Source of the DNA: Roseinatronobacter thiooxidans
GTDB lineage: Bacteria; Pseudomonadota; Alphaproteobacteria; Rhodobacterales; Rhodobacteraceae
Reading direction: 5' to 3'
Length of the DNA: 64,000 nt
Assembly: GCF_001870675.1 (NCBI RefSeq)
Contig: NZ_MEHT01000018.1
Location: forward strand, 124,001-188,000
The notes beneath the pieces are model-generated. The model searched no databases. It was not told where the DNA came from and worked only from the letters and a program-made list of their open reading frames with translations. The position numbers and the translations under genes are program-made. Below are positions 20,037-25,880 of this stretch, piece after piece. Position 1 is the stretch's first letter, and each line of letters starts with the position of its first letter.

Positions 20037-21713
20037 CTAACTGTCGCTGGTTTCGGTCAGTTGCCGCACCGCGTAATCGGCCGCATCGTCAAAGGGTTTC
20101 AGCACCACACTCGCGCCCTTGCCCAGCAGGTCCTCTGCCTCGGCCACTTGCTGCACTGACAAAAACACCTTGCCCTTGTAATTCGCCGACTTCAGCCCGT
20201 GCAGCAGCGCAAGCTGCGGGTCAGCCTCGGTCAGGGCACCACGGTCGCGCGGCACGGCAGATACAACCGCCTGTACGCCTGTCAGGTCCAGATGCGCCAC
20301 GAATTCAGGGTCAGTCGCATCGCCATAGCTGGCTTCCAGCCCCATGCGCCGCCAGTTGACCAGCGCTTCAGGGTCAAAATCGATGCCCAGTACGCGGTAG
20401 CCTTTGTCATGCAGCTTGTTGCCAATGCGGCAGCCATAGCGTCCCAGCCCGAAGATGATGAAATCCACATTGCGCGCATCGTCCACACTTTGGGTGTCGT
20501 CTTGTTCGCGGTGGGGTTGCTTGCGCTCGAACAGGCCCAGATACGGCTCGCACATCTCGAACAGTTTGTGCGACCATGTGATCATATAAACCGACAGCGC
20601 AATGGTCACGAGGCCCACCAGCGTAACCAGCCCCATGGCTTGCTGGCCCACATGGCCGATGGTAATACCCATCGCCATGAAGATCAGCGAGAATTCGGAG
20701 ATCTGCGCCACAGTCAGACCGGCCAGAAAGCCTGTGCGCTTGCGGTAGCCCATATAGCCCATGATCGCCAGAACGATCAGCGGGTTGCCGATCAGCACGA
20801 ACAGCGACAGCACAATCGCAGGGCCGATCTGGTCGCCGAGGGTGGAGAGTTGCAGAGACGCGCCCAGATTGATGAAAAAGAACAAAAGCAGGAAATCGCG
20901 CAAGGATGCAAGGCGCGAAGAAATCGCTTCTCGATACTCGGTCGAGGCCAGTGACACACCCGCCAGCAAGCCCCCCAATTCCTTGCCAAAGCCCAGCACA
21001 TCGCCAAGTGCTGCAAGGCTGGCCGCCCAGCCCACTGCAAAGATGACCATCAATTCGGGCGAGCGCGCGATCTGGCCCAACAGCGGGCTGGCGATATAGC
21101 GGATGAACACAACCACCGCGCCCACCATGACTGCACCGCCGATGAAAACCTGCGCGACATCCCAAATACCGCCTGCATCCTCGCCCATGCCAACCCCGAT
21201 AGCCGACAGGGTGACCATGGCCAGCACTACGAAAATATCCTGCACAATCAGGAATCCCAGCGCGATCTTGCCATGCAATGCGCCGATTTCCTGCTTGTCG
21301 GACAACAGCTTGACGATGATGATGGTGGATGAAAACGTCAGCGCAATCGAAATATACAGCGACGTTACCGGATCAAGCCCCAACGCAAGGCAGATCAGAT
21401 AGCCGAAAAACGCGGTAAAGGTGACCTGTCCCAGCCCTGTCGCCACGGCCACGCGGCCCAGATTGCGCACAAGGCTGACATCCAGCTTCAGCCCGACCAG
21501 AAACAGCAGCACTGCAATTGAAATCTGGCTGAGGGTCTCGATAAACTCGGTTGACGAGACCAGCCCCAGCGCATCCGGCCCTGCCAGCACACCCACTGCA
21601 ATGAACGCCACAACAAGCGGTTGGCGCAACAGAAGGCCCACAAAGCCCACACCTGCGGCCAGCAACACAAGAAGTGCGATTTCATAGAAGACAGAGGCAA
21701 AACTGGTGTCCAA
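20037..21713 (-). CDS. CPA2 family monovalent cation:proton antiporter with TrkA-N domain
   Basis: 558 residues. About 12 transmembrane helices (1-390) of the CPA2/KefB-YbaL type, including LLLFLVGLKLDVSLVRNLG and the FSSTIIIVKLLSDKQEIGALHGKIALGFLIVQD helix pair with its Asp, followed by a cytosolic RCK/TrkA-N nucleotide-binding domain (about 425-545, DFIIFGLGRYGCRIGNKL and FDPEALVNWRRMG). It exports K+ (or Na+) in exchange for H+ in response to nucleotide or glutathione adducts. The start is TTG behind GCGAGGATG; no in-frame ATG is better placed. It lies 49 bp after the amidoligase gene on the same strand and may be cotranscribed with it. Confidence 0.9.
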   Translation of the reverse strand: MDTSFASVFYEIALLVLLAAGVGFVGLLLRQPLVVAFIAVGVLAGPDALGLVSSTEFIETLSQISIAVLLFLVGLKLDVSLVRNLGRVAVATGLGQVTFTAFFGYLICLALGLDPVTSLYISIALTFSSTIIIVKLLSDKQEIGALHGKIALGFLIVQDIFVVLAMVTLSAIGVGMGEDAGGIWDVAQVFIGGAVMVGAVVVFIRYIASPLLGQIARSPELMVIFAVGWAASLAALGDVLGFGKELGGLLAGVSLASTEYREAISSRLASLRDFLLLFFFINLGASLQLSTLGDQIGPAIVLSLFVLIGNPLIVLAIMGYMGYRKRTGFLAGLTVAQISEFSLIFMAMGITIGHVGQQAMGLVTLVGLVTIALSVYMITWSHKLFEMCEPYLGLFERKQPHREQDDTQSVDDARNVDFIIFGLGRYGCRIGNKLHDKGYRVLGIDFDPEALVNWRRMGLEASYGDATDPEFVAHLDLTGVQAVVSAVPRDRGALTEADPQLALLHGLKSANYKGKVFLSVQQVAEAEDLLGKGASVVLKPFDDAADYAVRQLTETSDS

Positions 21714-21762: not shown

Positions 21763-22755
21763 TCAGCCTGTCGCGCCAGTCTGCCCACCGTGGTGTACCG
21801 GCAAATCAGCCGCCGCCAGCACGGACTCGACCTGCGCCGCCCAATCGCGCCCGCGTGGCAGCAGTGCTGCGCGGTGGTCTTGCCAGCGGCGTGCAAGCTC
21901 TTGCAAAATAGCCGCATTTGCGGCGACAGCCTCGATCAGGCACCAGCGGTTCCACTCATAGGCAATGCTCCAGCCTGCCTCGTCCAGCCGCGCTTCGGGC
22001 AGGCGGTAGTGAAAAGTCGGGCGTGCGCCTTTCAGATGCGCATCTGGCACAGCGCCAAGCGCATCGGGGCACAAATACTGCAAGGCAGGCAGCATATCCA
22101 GCCCGTAATTACGCGAGGGCGCGTGCGTGGCATATATGCGGGCGAAGTGCTCCACACTCCACCCTTTGGCCGGCGCCAGTACATCGGTCAAATCCAGCGG
22201 CCACGGGTCCACAAAGGGCAGTACACGGCGGGCAGGGTCTATCGGGTCGGACTGGCGCAACCACGGCTCTAGCAGGGCATAGGCGCGCGCCACCTCGACC
22301 AGCCCAGCCCCATCGGGGCCGGGCAGTTCAGGGTTCAGATGCAGGCCAAAACCGTAGGCCAGCCGCGCGCGCGTCCCCAGCGCACCGGCCTTGCGCAGCG
22401 CCGCCACCAGCCGATCTGCCTGTGGCAGATCACCATGCGCCAGCGGTGCCGTCACAATCTCGACCGGAACCAGCCCACCCAATGCCTGCGCGGCCAGATC
22501 CTCGGCCCATTTCTTTTGCAACGAGATGTCGAGTTCAACTTTGACATCCCCGAACTGCCCACCACTGAGTTTCAAGTCACGGTCATTCAGCGGCACAAGC
22601 CTGCCGCCCCAAAGCTGCTGGACGACCTGCGCGGCCCCCTCGACAGACAGTCCTGCAAATTCGATCTCGATGCCAGTCTTGCGCCCTGCGCTGGACTGGC
22701 CTGCATGGTTTGGCAAAGGCAGAAAGGGATCGGTTGGAATATTATCATGAATCAT
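21763..22755 (-). CDS. amidoligase family protein
   Basis: 330 residues of the putative amidoligase family (COOH-NH2 ligase fold related to glutamine synthetase/GCS). The N-terminal TGIEIEFAGLSVEGAAQVV strand with two metal-binding glutamates and the C-terminal Arg-rich SRNYGLDMLPALQYLCPD are family signatures as I know them. These enzymes are predicted to join a carboxylate and an amine using ATP; no substrate is established. The ATG 22755 gives a short unstructured leader. It follows the GGCT gene by 26 bp. Partner pairing with a gamma-glutamylcyclotransferase-fold protein is a recurrent theme for this family. Confidence 0.8.
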   Translation of the reverse strand: MIHDNIPTDPFLPLPNHAGQSSAGRKTGIEIEFAGLSVEGAAQVVQQLWGGRLVPLNDRDLKLSGGQFGDVKVELDISLQKKWAEDLAAQALGGLVPVEIVTAPLAHGDLPQADRLVAALRKAGALGTRARLAYGFGLHLNPELPGPDGAGLVEVARAYALLEPWLRQSDPIDPARRVLPFVDPWPLDLTDVLAPAKGWSVEHFARIYATHAPSRNYGLDMLPALQYLCPDALGAVPDAHLKGARPTFHYRLPEARLDEAGWSIAYEWNRWCLIEAVAANAAILQELARRWQDHRAALLPRGRDWAAQVESVLAAADLPVHHGGQTGATG

Positions 22756-22781
22756 TTGGGCCGCATCCTTGCTTGCGCGTC

Positions 22782-23228
22782 TTAGTCCTTCACCGCTTCC
22801 AGTCCAGCCTCGCCCATCAGGCGGTAGACCCAAGCCATAGTGCCGTCTTCCAGCTCTAGCAGATCGCGGCGGTAGCGTCGGCCTGTGCGCTCGTATCGGT
22901 CAAGGCGGATCATCTCGGACGGGGTGACGCGAAAGCGCACGCCATGCAGCACCATATCGGGCGCATCGCGCAAATCACGGCGGTGGCGCTGCCAGCCCCG
23001 CAGCGCGGCTGGTTCCGCCGGAAGATGGCGGCCCAGCACGACAAAGCGCACAAAAGGGTTGGTCAGGGTGGCAAAGCCGAAGACATACGCGTGCCCGTGT
23101 GGCGGGGGCGGGGCATTGGCGTCAAGGCGCGGCAGATAGACCGGCGCGCGGGTAACCATCAGCCACGACAGCAGAACCACCACGCTCAGCGCCGCCGCAA
23201 GAATGATTTTCCAGTCAAACACAAACAT
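22782..23228 (-). CDS. membrane-anchored gamma-glutamylcyclotransferase-like (AIG2) protein
   Basis: 148 residues. A single N-terminal transmembrane segment (about 7-25, KIILAAALSVVVLLSWLMV) is followed by a GGCT/AIG2 domain: the YVFGFATLTNPFV strand (49-60, the family's YGSL-type loop) and LDRYERTGRRYRR, where Glu113 sits at the catalytic position. Such enzymes split gamma-glutamyl amides by cyclising the glutamyl part to pyroglutamate. An anchor on this domain is unusual. It precedes the amidoligase gene on the same strand, separated by 26 bp, so they are likely one operon; the pair could make and break the same kind of bond. Confidence 0.8.
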   Translation of the reverse strand: MFVFDWKIILAAALSVVVLLSWLMVTRAPVYLPRLDANAPPPPHGHAYVFGFATLTNPFVRFVVLGRHLPAEPAALRGWQRHRRDLRDAPDMVLHGVRFRVTPSEMIRLDRYERTGRRYRRDLLELEDGTMAWVYRLMGEAGLEAVKD

Positions 23229-23566: not shown

Positions 23567-24484
23567 TCACCCCGCCCCGTGCTGCGGCAGGGCTTTCGCC
23601 GCCAGTGTCGCGCGCCGCTTGCGCAGCACTTCCCAGATATACAGCGCCATCGCTGCCCAGATCATCGGAAAGGCCACCACGCGCCCCCCTTCAAACGGTT
23701 CGCGGAAAATGAACACTGAAATCAGAAAGATCATGGTGGGAATCGAATAGCTGGAAATCGCAATCGTGGACAGGTTCAGCCCCTTTGCACCATTGGCATA
23801 CAAGATCAGCGGCACTGCCGTAATCACCCCGCAGCCCAGCAACAGCGCCCAATCCAGTGCGCTGGCTTGCGCTGCATAAAGCACACCTTGCGTCTGCGCC
23901 CATGCCAGATAGGCCAGCGCCACTGGCAGCAGGATCAGCGCCTCCAGCGCAAAGCCCTGATTGGGGCCAATGGGCAGGGCGCGTTTGAAAAACGCATAGC
24001 TGCCCCAACTGAACACGATCAAAAGCGCGCCCAAGGGCAGGCTGCCTGCCTCAACTGTCAGCACCACCACTGCCAGCGCGGCCAGGGCCACCGCACCCCA
24101 TTGGCGCAGCGACAGTTTCTCGCCCAGCAGGGTTGCACCCAGAAAGACGCTGAAAATCGGGTTAATGTAATAGCCAAGGGCAGCTTCCATCGCCTGCCCC
24201 GACTGGATCAGCCAGACATAAGTGCCCCAGTTGACCGAGATCAGCGCCGCCGTCACGCAGGCCATGCCCAACATGCGCGGGGTGCGAAAGGCCGCGCGCA
24301 AATCTGCCGTGCGCCCCAGCCAGATCAGCCATGCCAGCGCAACCGGCACCGCCCAGATGACGCGATGCGCGATCACCTCGATTGTGGGGACATGCTCCAG
24401 CGCCTTGAAATAGAACGGCAAGCCGCCCCAGATCAGAAACGCAGCAGCGGCAAAGGCAAAGCCGCGCGGGGTATCTTCACTCAT
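23567..24484 (-). CDS. rarD: RarD/EamA family transporter
   Basis: 305 residues with about ten transmembrane helices, the RarD-type chloramphenicol-sensitive subfamily of EamA/DMT permeases. Recognisable are [26 protein letters not shown] near the start, [34 protein letters not shown] around residues 95-130 and the [16 protein letters not shown] segment near 265. Substrate unknown, possibly a metabolite or drug. ATG 24484 overlaps the murD stop by 8 bp, so the two are probably cotranscribed with murD first. The 3' end abuts the repeat at 23343. Confidence 0.85.
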
Positions 24485-25880
24485 GCCCAAGCCCCGCTTG
24501 CACGGCGGCCATGAACGCCGCGCCGCGCTTCTCGAAATCGGGGTATTGGTCGAAACTGGCTGCCGCAGGGGCCAGCAGGACGACATCGCCCGCCTCTGCC
24601 TCGGCCATGGCGCGGGCTACGGCAACCTCCATCGTTTCGCAAATTTCATGCTCGGTGCGGCCCAGTTGCAGCGCAAACTCGCGTGCGGAATGGCCGATCA
24701 GATAGGCTTTGCGCACGCGGCCCAAATGGGGGGCAAGGGCTGCGATGCCGCCATCCTTGCCCAAACCGCCCGCGATCCAGCGGATTTTGTCGAAAGCCTG
24801 CAAAGCTTGCGCGGCACTTTCCACATTGGTGGCCTTGGAATCGTTGATGTAGCGCACCCCGCCCGCTTCGGCCACTTGCTGGCTGCGATGGGGCAGTCCC
24901 TTGAAGGTCAGGAACGCGTCTTCGATCATGCGCGGCGCAAGGCCAAGGCTGCGCGCCACCGCATAGGCGGCGCAGGCATTCTGGTGGTTATGCGCACCGG
25001 GCAGGCCCGCGATTGCGCGCAGATCGATCGAGGCCATCTGCTTGCCGCGCCGGTATTCCGACAAGAAGCCTTTGCGGGCAAATACATTCCACCCCGGCCC
25101 CGCCAGCTTTTGCCCAGAAGAGATGCGGATGACCCGCGCATCCTCTGGGGCTTGTGCGACTTGGCCCGCAAGAAACTGCCCTTCCAACTCATCCACACCG
25201 ATAACGGCACGGTCTGGCCCGCCTTCGGCAAACAGGCGGCGTTTGGCCGCGAAATAGCCCCCCATACCATTGTGGCGGTCCAGATGGTCGGGCGACAGGT
25301 TGGTGAAGACAGCAACATCAGGGGTCAGCGCACGGGCAAGTTCCAACTGGTAGCTGGACAGTTCCAGCACCACCACTTCGCCGTCGCGCAAAGGGTCAAT
25401 TGACAGCACACCCTTGCCGATATTGCCCGCCATCTGCACAGGGCGGCCCGCCTCTTGCAAGATATGGTGGATCAGGGCCGTGGTTGTCGATTTCCCGTTG
25501 GAACCCGTGACCGCCACCACTTTGGGCGGCTGTTCAAACTCTATCGTTTCAGATGTGGCGAAGCTGCGGAAAAACAGGCCGATGTCATTGTCCACCGGCA
25601 CGCCCGCGGCATAGGCGGCAGCAATGATGCGGTTGGGCGCGGGGTAGAGATGCGCAATGCCCGGACTGGTGATCAGCACCGCCACGCCAGACCAGTCCAC
25701 GCGGGCCAGATCATGCAGGTCAATGCCCGCCTCCTCGGCCTTGGCGCGTGCTTCCGGGCTTTCATCCCATGCCAGCGGAATGGCCCCGCCCGCGCGCAGG
25801 GCCGCGCATGTCGCAAGCCCCGACCGGCCCAGACCCAGAACAGCCACATTCTGCCCCTCATAGCCCTGCACAGCAATCAT
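24477..25880 (-). CDS. murD: UDP-N-acetylmuramoyl-L-alanine:D-glutamate ligase
   Basis: 467 residues; adds D-glutamate to UDP-MurNAc-L-Ala in peptidoglycan synthesis, in the cytoplasm. The N-terminal Rossmann domain ([11 protein letters not shown]), the central ATP-binding loop [16 protein letters not shown] (about 126-141), [10 protein letters not shown] and the C-terminal LSSYQLE and [11 protein letters not shown] blocks are all present. Intact and standard length. It stands apart from other mur genes here, being followed by rarD. Confidence 0.96.

Follow-up and report, generated by a model that had tools for sequence, protein, structure and literature searches.

A membrane-anchored GGCT-like protein in an operon with an Amidoligase_2 ligase in Roseinatronobacter thiooxidans: a possible gamma-glutamylation module with an exchanged cleaving partner

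Introduction

The gene pair analysed here lies in a window of 64,000 nucleotides of the Roseinatronobacter thiooxidans genome (contig NZ_MEHT01000018.1, positions 124,001 to 188,000) and raises the question of which bond is made by an amide-forming ligase whose operon partner is a gamma-glutamylcyclotransferase-like (GGCT) protein anchored in the membrane, and whether that partner undoes it. The ligase falls in Amidoligase_2 (PF12224), which we take to be the same as a ligase family described in 2008. In the available parts of that description, by Iyer, Burroughs and Aravind, a GCS2-sized ligase stands beside a GAT-like thiol peptidase in proteobacteria or, as the alternative partner, an Aig2-type cyclotransferase in firmicutes, and the family with either partner has thus been in print since 2008 (PMC2588565). 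As far as those parts go, the arrangement reported here differs in three respects: the Aig2-type partner occurs in proteobacteria and carries a transmembrane (TM) anchor, it alternates with a Peptidase_C26 protein (C26) inside one bacterial family, and it is co-resident with the ligase, mostly unlinked, in gammaproteobacteria. In the literature searched, with most subscription journals outside it, neither a TM-anchored GGCT nor a GGCT/C26 swap within one family nor the co-occurrence of TM-GGCT with amidoligase was described; these three features are what appears to be new. No substrate for Amidoligase_2 was given in the literature searched.

The gene pair and its parts

The features of the pair are collected in Table 1. 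The gene order and coordinates given by a sequence-only reading of this DNA, with GGCT ahead of the amidoligase on the minus strand, were exact, and the TM helix which that reading had placed before the GGCT domain was recovered as a hydrophobic segment.

Table 1. Features of the GGCT-amidoligase locus, in window coordinates
Feature	Position	Strand	Remark
Membrane-anchored GGCT/AIG2-like protein, 148 aa (stop included)	22782..23228	-	PF06094
Predicted transmembrane helix, GGCT residues 8-26	23151..23207	-	mean Kyte-Doolittle 2.57
Juxtamembrane motif RAPxYLP, GGCT residues 27-33	23130..23150	-	conserved, 29 sequences
FATL where the family usually has a YGTL/YGSL loop, GGCT residues 52-55	23064..23075	-	
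Codon of catalytic-type Glu113, within RLDRYE	22890..22892	-	RLDRYE in 78/78 TM-GGCTs
Intergenic gap of 26 bp, two-gene operon	22756..22781	-	
Amidoligase_2, GS/GCS-fold carboxylate-amine ligase, 330 aa (stop included)	21763..22755	-	
Invariant acidic pair E30/E32, first strand of the ligase fold	22660..22668	-	70 aligned amidoligases
rarD-like EamA transporter, upstream neighbour	23567..24484	-	
murD (presumed, named from sequence), upstream neighbour	24477..25880	-	

The amidoligase matches PF12224 (Pfam) with an E-value of 2.7e-45 and 155.6 bits against a curated cut-off of 22, and its membership in Amidoligase_2 is further borne out by a GS/GCS-type fold, conserved acidic residues and the AIG2-like neighbour. 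It is the only amidoligase match in the genome (3.5 Mb, 50 contigs); an in-frame TTG at 22833 is a possible alternative start that would lengthen the protein. The GGCT-like protein matches PF06094 (GGACT/AIG2-like, Pfam) at 6.8e-8, above the curated cut-off, which together with its fold and catalytic-type glutamate would place it in the GGCT/AIG2-like family.

The residues E30, E32, D76, E99, N141, R245, R251 and E275 are invariant in 70 aligned amidoligases; E30 and E32 are, from what is known of the family, presumably metal ligands. Loss of these glutamates, or of Glu113 of the GGCT protein, in homologues had been named beforehand as an argument against enzyme activity; the acidic residues of the ligase are kept throughout, as is RLDRYE with its catalytic-type glutamate in all 78 aligned TM-GGCTs, where Glu113 is matched to the GGCT catalytic residue by motif position, as we assume. 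A sequence search for a solved relative of the amidoligase gave no credible match. Foldseek returned glutamate-cysteine ligase as the first row (E 1.3e-3, with none below 1e-3), whereas glutamine synthetase is dominant among the 50 VIA rows listed and glutamate-cysteine ligase is not among them; no preference for GCS over GS is therefore drawn.

Conservation in the genus and local synteny

The window genus comprises the soda-lake Roseinatronobacter/Natronohydrobacter/Roseibaca, with Rhabdonatronobacter as one further owner of the GGCT gene. An amidoligase match is present in 30 of 37 same-genus genomes, and GGCT stands directly upstream in 29 of these 30 loci (cut short in L086), with gaps of -4 to 34 bp and once 97 bp, the starts being chosen by script. 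The sole miss (L090) begins inside the GGCT gene at a contig end, and a second contig of that genome (L182) holds GGCT and the start of the amidoligase. The same adjacency is found in one locus of another genus, Rhabdonatronobacter (genome G037, locus L033). Seven genus genomes lack an amidoligase match; one of them, G218, has GGCT at a contig end (L183), so that some of the absences are assembly gaps, and two near-complete genomes, G198 and G231, are apparently without the pair.

A murD-rarD-GGCT-amidoligase block with varied outer flanks is seen at 19 of the 22 wide loci of the genus, which would suit a role in peptidoglycan-precursor modification, the ligase modifying, or GGCT trimming, the D-Glu-containing stem peptide or recycled fragments. 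Against this, murD and rarD stand together without GGCT behind them in five genus loci that have sufficient flanking sequence (L176, L178, L179, L181 and L184), and murD is absent from the stretch at L149, L150, L162, L033 and all 29 other family amidoligase loci. Nor was rarD seen at 18 murD loci of other genera, and the block is therefore regarded as local synteny. The linkage to murD, weakened as functional evidence by murD-rarD standing without the pair, leaves the peptidoglycan reading quite improbable, and the case for functional membership of rarD in the pair is weak.

Two observations on neighbouring genes may be added. In Rhabdonatronobacter murD is present without rarD (L185). A Kef-type CPA2 antiporter (20037-21713, minus strand) comes after the amidoligase in the window, and as this gene cluster is repeated in only 4 of 23 compared loci it is probably clade-specific synteny.

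Exchange of the putative cleaving partner

A family sample of 198 genomes contained 32 with amidoligase, counting G000 and G179; in the rest of the family, C26 is encoded directly downstream in 28 of the 30 sampled amidoligase genomes, with GGCT in one (G037) and neither in one (G083). Wider samples show the same arrangement: amidoligase occurs in 26 of 385 genomes of the class sample, where 21 of the 24 not already counted have adjacent C26 and three do not, and in 24 of 398 of the phylum sample, where 15 of 19 new genomes have it and four do not. Summed over the samples, 73 amidoligase genomes outside the window genus comprise 64 with C26, one with GGCT and eight with neither adjacent. A class I glutamine amidotransferase had been proposed as a third partner to look for, and this Peptidase_C26/PuuD-like protein fills that place, as an alternative to GGCT in the window's family and as a co-resident in gammaproteobacteria. 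The best Pfam match of three C26 proteins scanned is PF07722, and their best NCBIfam equivalog is the model for PuuD, a gamma-glutamyl-GABA hydrolase, far below its cut-off; the nucleophile (GICRG-type) and WHPE motifs are present in all 28 family C26 proteins.

At the 30 genus amidoligase loci C26 was not found, barring a chance-level match of 36 residues (E 2e-3, L032). The window flank (L031) has none, and of two distant C26-type matches at other places in this genome the better is 33% identical. Some C26-type match exists in 34 of 37 genus genomes, the best, apart from G217, being 37% identical and most 31-37% with E about 1e-15; such a distant paralogue could serve in the place of C26. 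Genome G217 of the genus encodes a C26 that is 74% identical to the amidoligase partner (L091, 1510-2220), with no amidoligase match found in the genome, no amidoligase or GGCT in the stretch, and an assembly 75% complete. The genes ahead of it are, as we read them, an acyltransferase pair of ornithine-lipid type, and this C26 gene may be a contaminant or an orphan remnant.

Strong TM-GGCT matches (E <1e-50) are confined to G000, G179 and G037 in the 198-genome family sample, where the remaining matches are at E 8e-15 or weaker, and to G000 in the 385-genome class sample. As there is no strong TM-GGCT in the sampled C26-type family genomes outside the clade, the ligase often works without it. 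The PF06094 profile matches 65 of the 198 family genomes at E 1e-3; the matches in the 62 others were rejected as TM-GGCT, being at E 9e-13 or worse and mostly in frames of at least 370 aa.

In a tree of 102 amidoligase sequences (midpoint root), the window clade and Rhabdonatronobacter form one group (100/100), which joins the C26-type G024 (100/99) within Rhodobacteraceae, apart from Thiomicrospira. A gammaproteobacterial origin of the whole pair by transfer was set aside on this placement, as drawn from the midpoint-rooted tree. The ligase looks inherited; GGCT beside it would be a newcomer, and C26 would have been lost. The Rhabdonatronobacter amidoligase (G037, L033) is nested in the clade of the window genus beside G228 (99/72), so the pair there is not an independent case; the nesting suggests that it may have been transferred between genera.

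Co-occurrence of TM-GGCT and amidoligase

A TM-GGCT profile scan of named genomes was followed through the best 80 of 160 confirmed loci. Thirty of these 80 belong to the window clade (L203-L231 and L234), and in 29 of them an amidoligase lies just downstream (cut off in L220), the remaining locus, L225, ending about 56 bases past GGCT. The other 50 of the best 80 are 49 from gammaproteobacteria, including Halomonas, Billgrantia, Vreelandella, Marinospirillum, Alkalimonas, Thiomicrospira ALE5, Alcanivorax, Marinobacter, Haliea and others, and one from Rhodobacteraceae LNNU 3342. In 47 of these 50 no amidoligase is present within the stretch, which spans at most 5 kb on either side; L233 has it adjacent, L238 close by and L275 at a distance of 4.5 kb.

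PF12224 was found in each of the 40 TM-GGCT genomes searched whole (40 of the 50 outside the clade), against a background of 24 of 398 in the phylum sample, a difference with a Fisher p of about 3e-40 in which kinship is ignored and at least two genomes apparently stand in both sets (identical coordinates). By genus name we take 27 of the 40 to be Halomonadaceae, so the co-occurring genomes do not count as independent cases, the sampling of this family being confined to members with TM-GGCT; the other 13, from about eight lineages, also all have the amidoligase.

The amidoligase loci of these 40 genomes have C26 adjacent in 37, neither partner in two Haliea genomes and GGCT instead in Thiomicrospira ALE5. 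Mutual exclusion of GGCT and C26, which holds in the family, accordingly fails as a general rule because 37 of the 40 TM-GGCT genomes also have C26 beside the amidoligase. LNNU 3342 combines an amidoligase-C26 locus (L393) with an unlinked TM-GGCT (L232), and in a gammaproteobacterial MAG (L238, 2429-4606; L311) TM-GGCT is divergent from amidoligase-C26, with all three genes side by side. The amidoligase does not need TM-GGCT, yet each TM-GGCT genome tested has an amidoligase.

The two Haliea genomes (L305, L306, L403) carry TM-GGCT elsewhere in the genome, and in L403 a 90 aa open reading frame comes after the amidoligase. In Halomonas olivaria TYRC17 (L402, L271) the amidoligase frame is in three pieces and several neighbouring genes are split, which looks like sequencing error.

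These distributions bear on whether the pairing is a matter of genomic hitch-hiking, with GGCT and amidoligase in separate pathways and their operon shared by chance. GGCT-like domains are common at the level of the family profile noted above, the pair adjoins housekeeping genes, and most TM-GGCT loci outside the clade, within the best 80 of 160, stand away from an amidoligase. The co-occurrence in 40 of 40 genomes of genes that are mostly unlinked argues against this, as do the adjacency in Thiomicrospira ALE5 and the close, divergent arrangement in L238, and a chance pairing is considered to have a low probability.

The membrane GGCT

Among 29 clade GGCT sequences R27, P29, L32 and P33 are invariant, A28 and Y31 are kept in at least 90%, and in all 29 full-length homologues the N-terminal segment exceeds a hydrophobicity of 1.5. 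An LptM (YifL)-like match of the linker (E 0.84) was dismissed as chance level. The loop corresponding to YGSL/YGTL, the substrate loop signature of the GGCT family, is FATL in 28 of 29 and LATL in one of 29 clade sequences, YGTL/YGSL occurring in none, whereas outside the clade YGTL is found in 48 of 49 TM-GGCTs; LNNU 3342 (L232) has YATL, intermediate between FATL and YGTL. Given this substitution, the activity or substrate of the window-clade GGCT may differ from that of its relatives.

Outside the clade the charge flanking the helix is higher on the N side in 43 of 45 TM-GGCTs and the reverse in none (50 loci gave 49 sequences, without L240, and four under the hydrophobicity cut were left out; start codons were script-chosen, that of L279 being doubtful). 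This bias places the GGCT domain of the non-clade relatives on the far side of the membrane, if the charge rule is followed. In the window clade the N side is higher in 15 of 29 and the C side in 8 of 29, a split that does not assign the domain to either side. A literature search for periplasmic GGCT made no mention of such an enzyme among the matches listed.

The sequence-only reading had placed the system near the membrane, which is supported for GGCT, with its predicted helix, and not for the ligase, where no hydrophobic N-terminal segment is present. It had also raised a reversible tagging or peptide-modifying system there; as protein or peptide tagging this would have the ligase adding one or more glutamates to a protein and GGCT removing them. 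What is known of both partner families concerns small gamma-glutamyl compounds, which counts against tagging, and no conserved small open reading frame that could encode a Pup-like tag was seen with the pair in the gene calls of 23 loci (simple gene caller, 50 aa minimum). The GS/GCS fold does include PafA, a protein ligase, as stated in the accessible part of PMC2588565; PafA appears among the Foldseek rows (rank 24, E 0.05), and GGCT is predicted to be membrane-bound. In those same parts, the 2008 authors nevertheless argued against protein conjugation for their ligase family and favoured glutathione-like or peptide-metabolite chemistry (PMC2588565). The tagging proposal is not supported and is judged very improbable.

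Regulation and stress response

Several amidoligase loci adjoin genes that we read as nepR-ecfG-kinase-phyR. An EcfG motif of the form GGAAC-N17-20-GTT is reported in Sphingomonas in the portion of PMC6599016 available. Among the 29 family loci outside the clade, of which 28 have C26, an EcfG-type promoter (GGAAC-N15-19-CGTT) stands no more than 130 nt ahead of the amidoligase gene in 12; for the other genes called at those loci the figure is 17 of 383 (p 3e-8), and a looser pattern raises the amidoligase count to 14 of 29. NepR is encoded in 27 of 32 amidoligase genomes of the family and 62 of 166 others (kinship uncorrected). The C26 form thus looks like part of the general stress regulon in this family (loci L034-L062), to the extent that promoter patterns can indicate it. 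Of 23 loci from the class but not from the family, none has the strict form and two have a loose one; in the 1.2 kb upstream at 22 window-genus loci GGAAC-N15-19-[CG]GTT was absent from all, and NepR is present in 19 of 37 window-genus genomes.

A stress connection would also suit a biosynthetic pair, in which the ligase would make a gamma-glutamyl osmolyte or peptide for GGCT to break down once salt or pH drops. The TM-GGCT owners are mostly from genera that we take to be salt-loving or alkaliphilic, and the C26 form in the family is tied to the general stress response; on the other side, no other biosynthetic gene is conserved alongside, apart from murD-rarD, and the EcfG-type promoter is missing from the genus loci and nearly so from the other class loci. 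A biosynthetic role is on this evidence unlikely.

Comparison with known systems

Ligases that make gamma-glutamyl amides are already known in combination with enzymes that break them. The GS-fold ligase PuuA forms a gamma-glutamyl amide, which the GAT-like PuuD then hydrolyses. Gamma-glutamylanilide is made by the GS-like enzyme and hydrolysed by the GAT-like enzyme of AtdA1/AtdA2, and the same scheme is assigned by homology to NpaA1/NpaA2, according to the available text of PMC11335346. The Puu, Atd and Npa ligases are GS relatives, whereas the window ligase matched only PF12224; in addition, no oxygenase genes recur beside the window pair, and its cleaving partner is a membrane GGCT. In butirosin formation, BtrJ adds a gamma-glutamyl protecting group that is removed by BtrG, an enzyme of GGCT fold; BtrJ is an ATP-grasp ligase, BtrG is soluble and both belong to an antibiotic cluster, while none of these traits was seen at the window pair.

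The LUZ24-like phage UFV-P2 has Amidoligase_2 and an AIG2/GGCT-like open reading frame in one early-gene module, as described in the accessible part of PMC3890496. Genes for COOH-NH2 ligase, GATase_6 and ATP-grasp proteins lie in that module too, and its Amidoligase_2 and AIG2/GGCT-like genes are not adjacent, with no TM segment mentioned in that part of the source, in contrast to the adjacent, TM-anchored two-gene operon of the window.

Proposed function and significance

Both cleaving families act on gamma-glutamyl bonds, as PuuD, GGCT and GGACT do. Since two unrelated families that cut such bonds alternate or co-reside with one ligase, the product of the ligase is likely a gamma-glutamyl amide, and the simplest account would be that the ligase makes this amide and the partner undoes it. 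We therefore propose a gamma-glutamylation/deglutamylation module with a swapped cleaving partner, a reading of comparative data that we hold to be about evenly poised between right and wrong. At the expense of ATP, the cytoplasmic ligase would couple glutamate through its gamma-carboxyl group to a small amine; C26 would take the glutamate off by hydrolysis, or the membrane GGCT would do so as 5-oxoproline, GGCT alone cleaving where C26 was lost. Many gammaproteobacteria have the ligase, C26 and TM-GGCT together, and in the window clade C26 was apparently lost while TM-GGCT was kept, in an operon with the ligase. The purpose might lie in protecting against an amine, or in disposing of it, during stress. 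We prefer a small-molecule cycle of this kind to protein tagging, which agrees with the view expressed in the available parts of PMC2588565.

If GGCT does act outside and C26 inside the membrane, the two are not simple substitutes. A relay could then be imagined, in which the ligase caps an amine with glutamate inside the cell, the conjugate is exported, in this genus perhaps by the neighbouring RarD-type transporter, and GGCT, acting at the periplasmic face, sets free 5-oxoproline together with the amine; this extension is possible though doubtful.

For the family, this makes a gamma-glutamyl amide, instead of just any amide, the likely product of the ligase, and it names three genes for joint assay. 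The Halomonas species that have all three parts make the question directly testable. The relay, if true, would mean a periplasmic gamma-glutamylcyclotransferase and a route of amine disposal or delivery in salt-loving and alkaliphilic bacteria.
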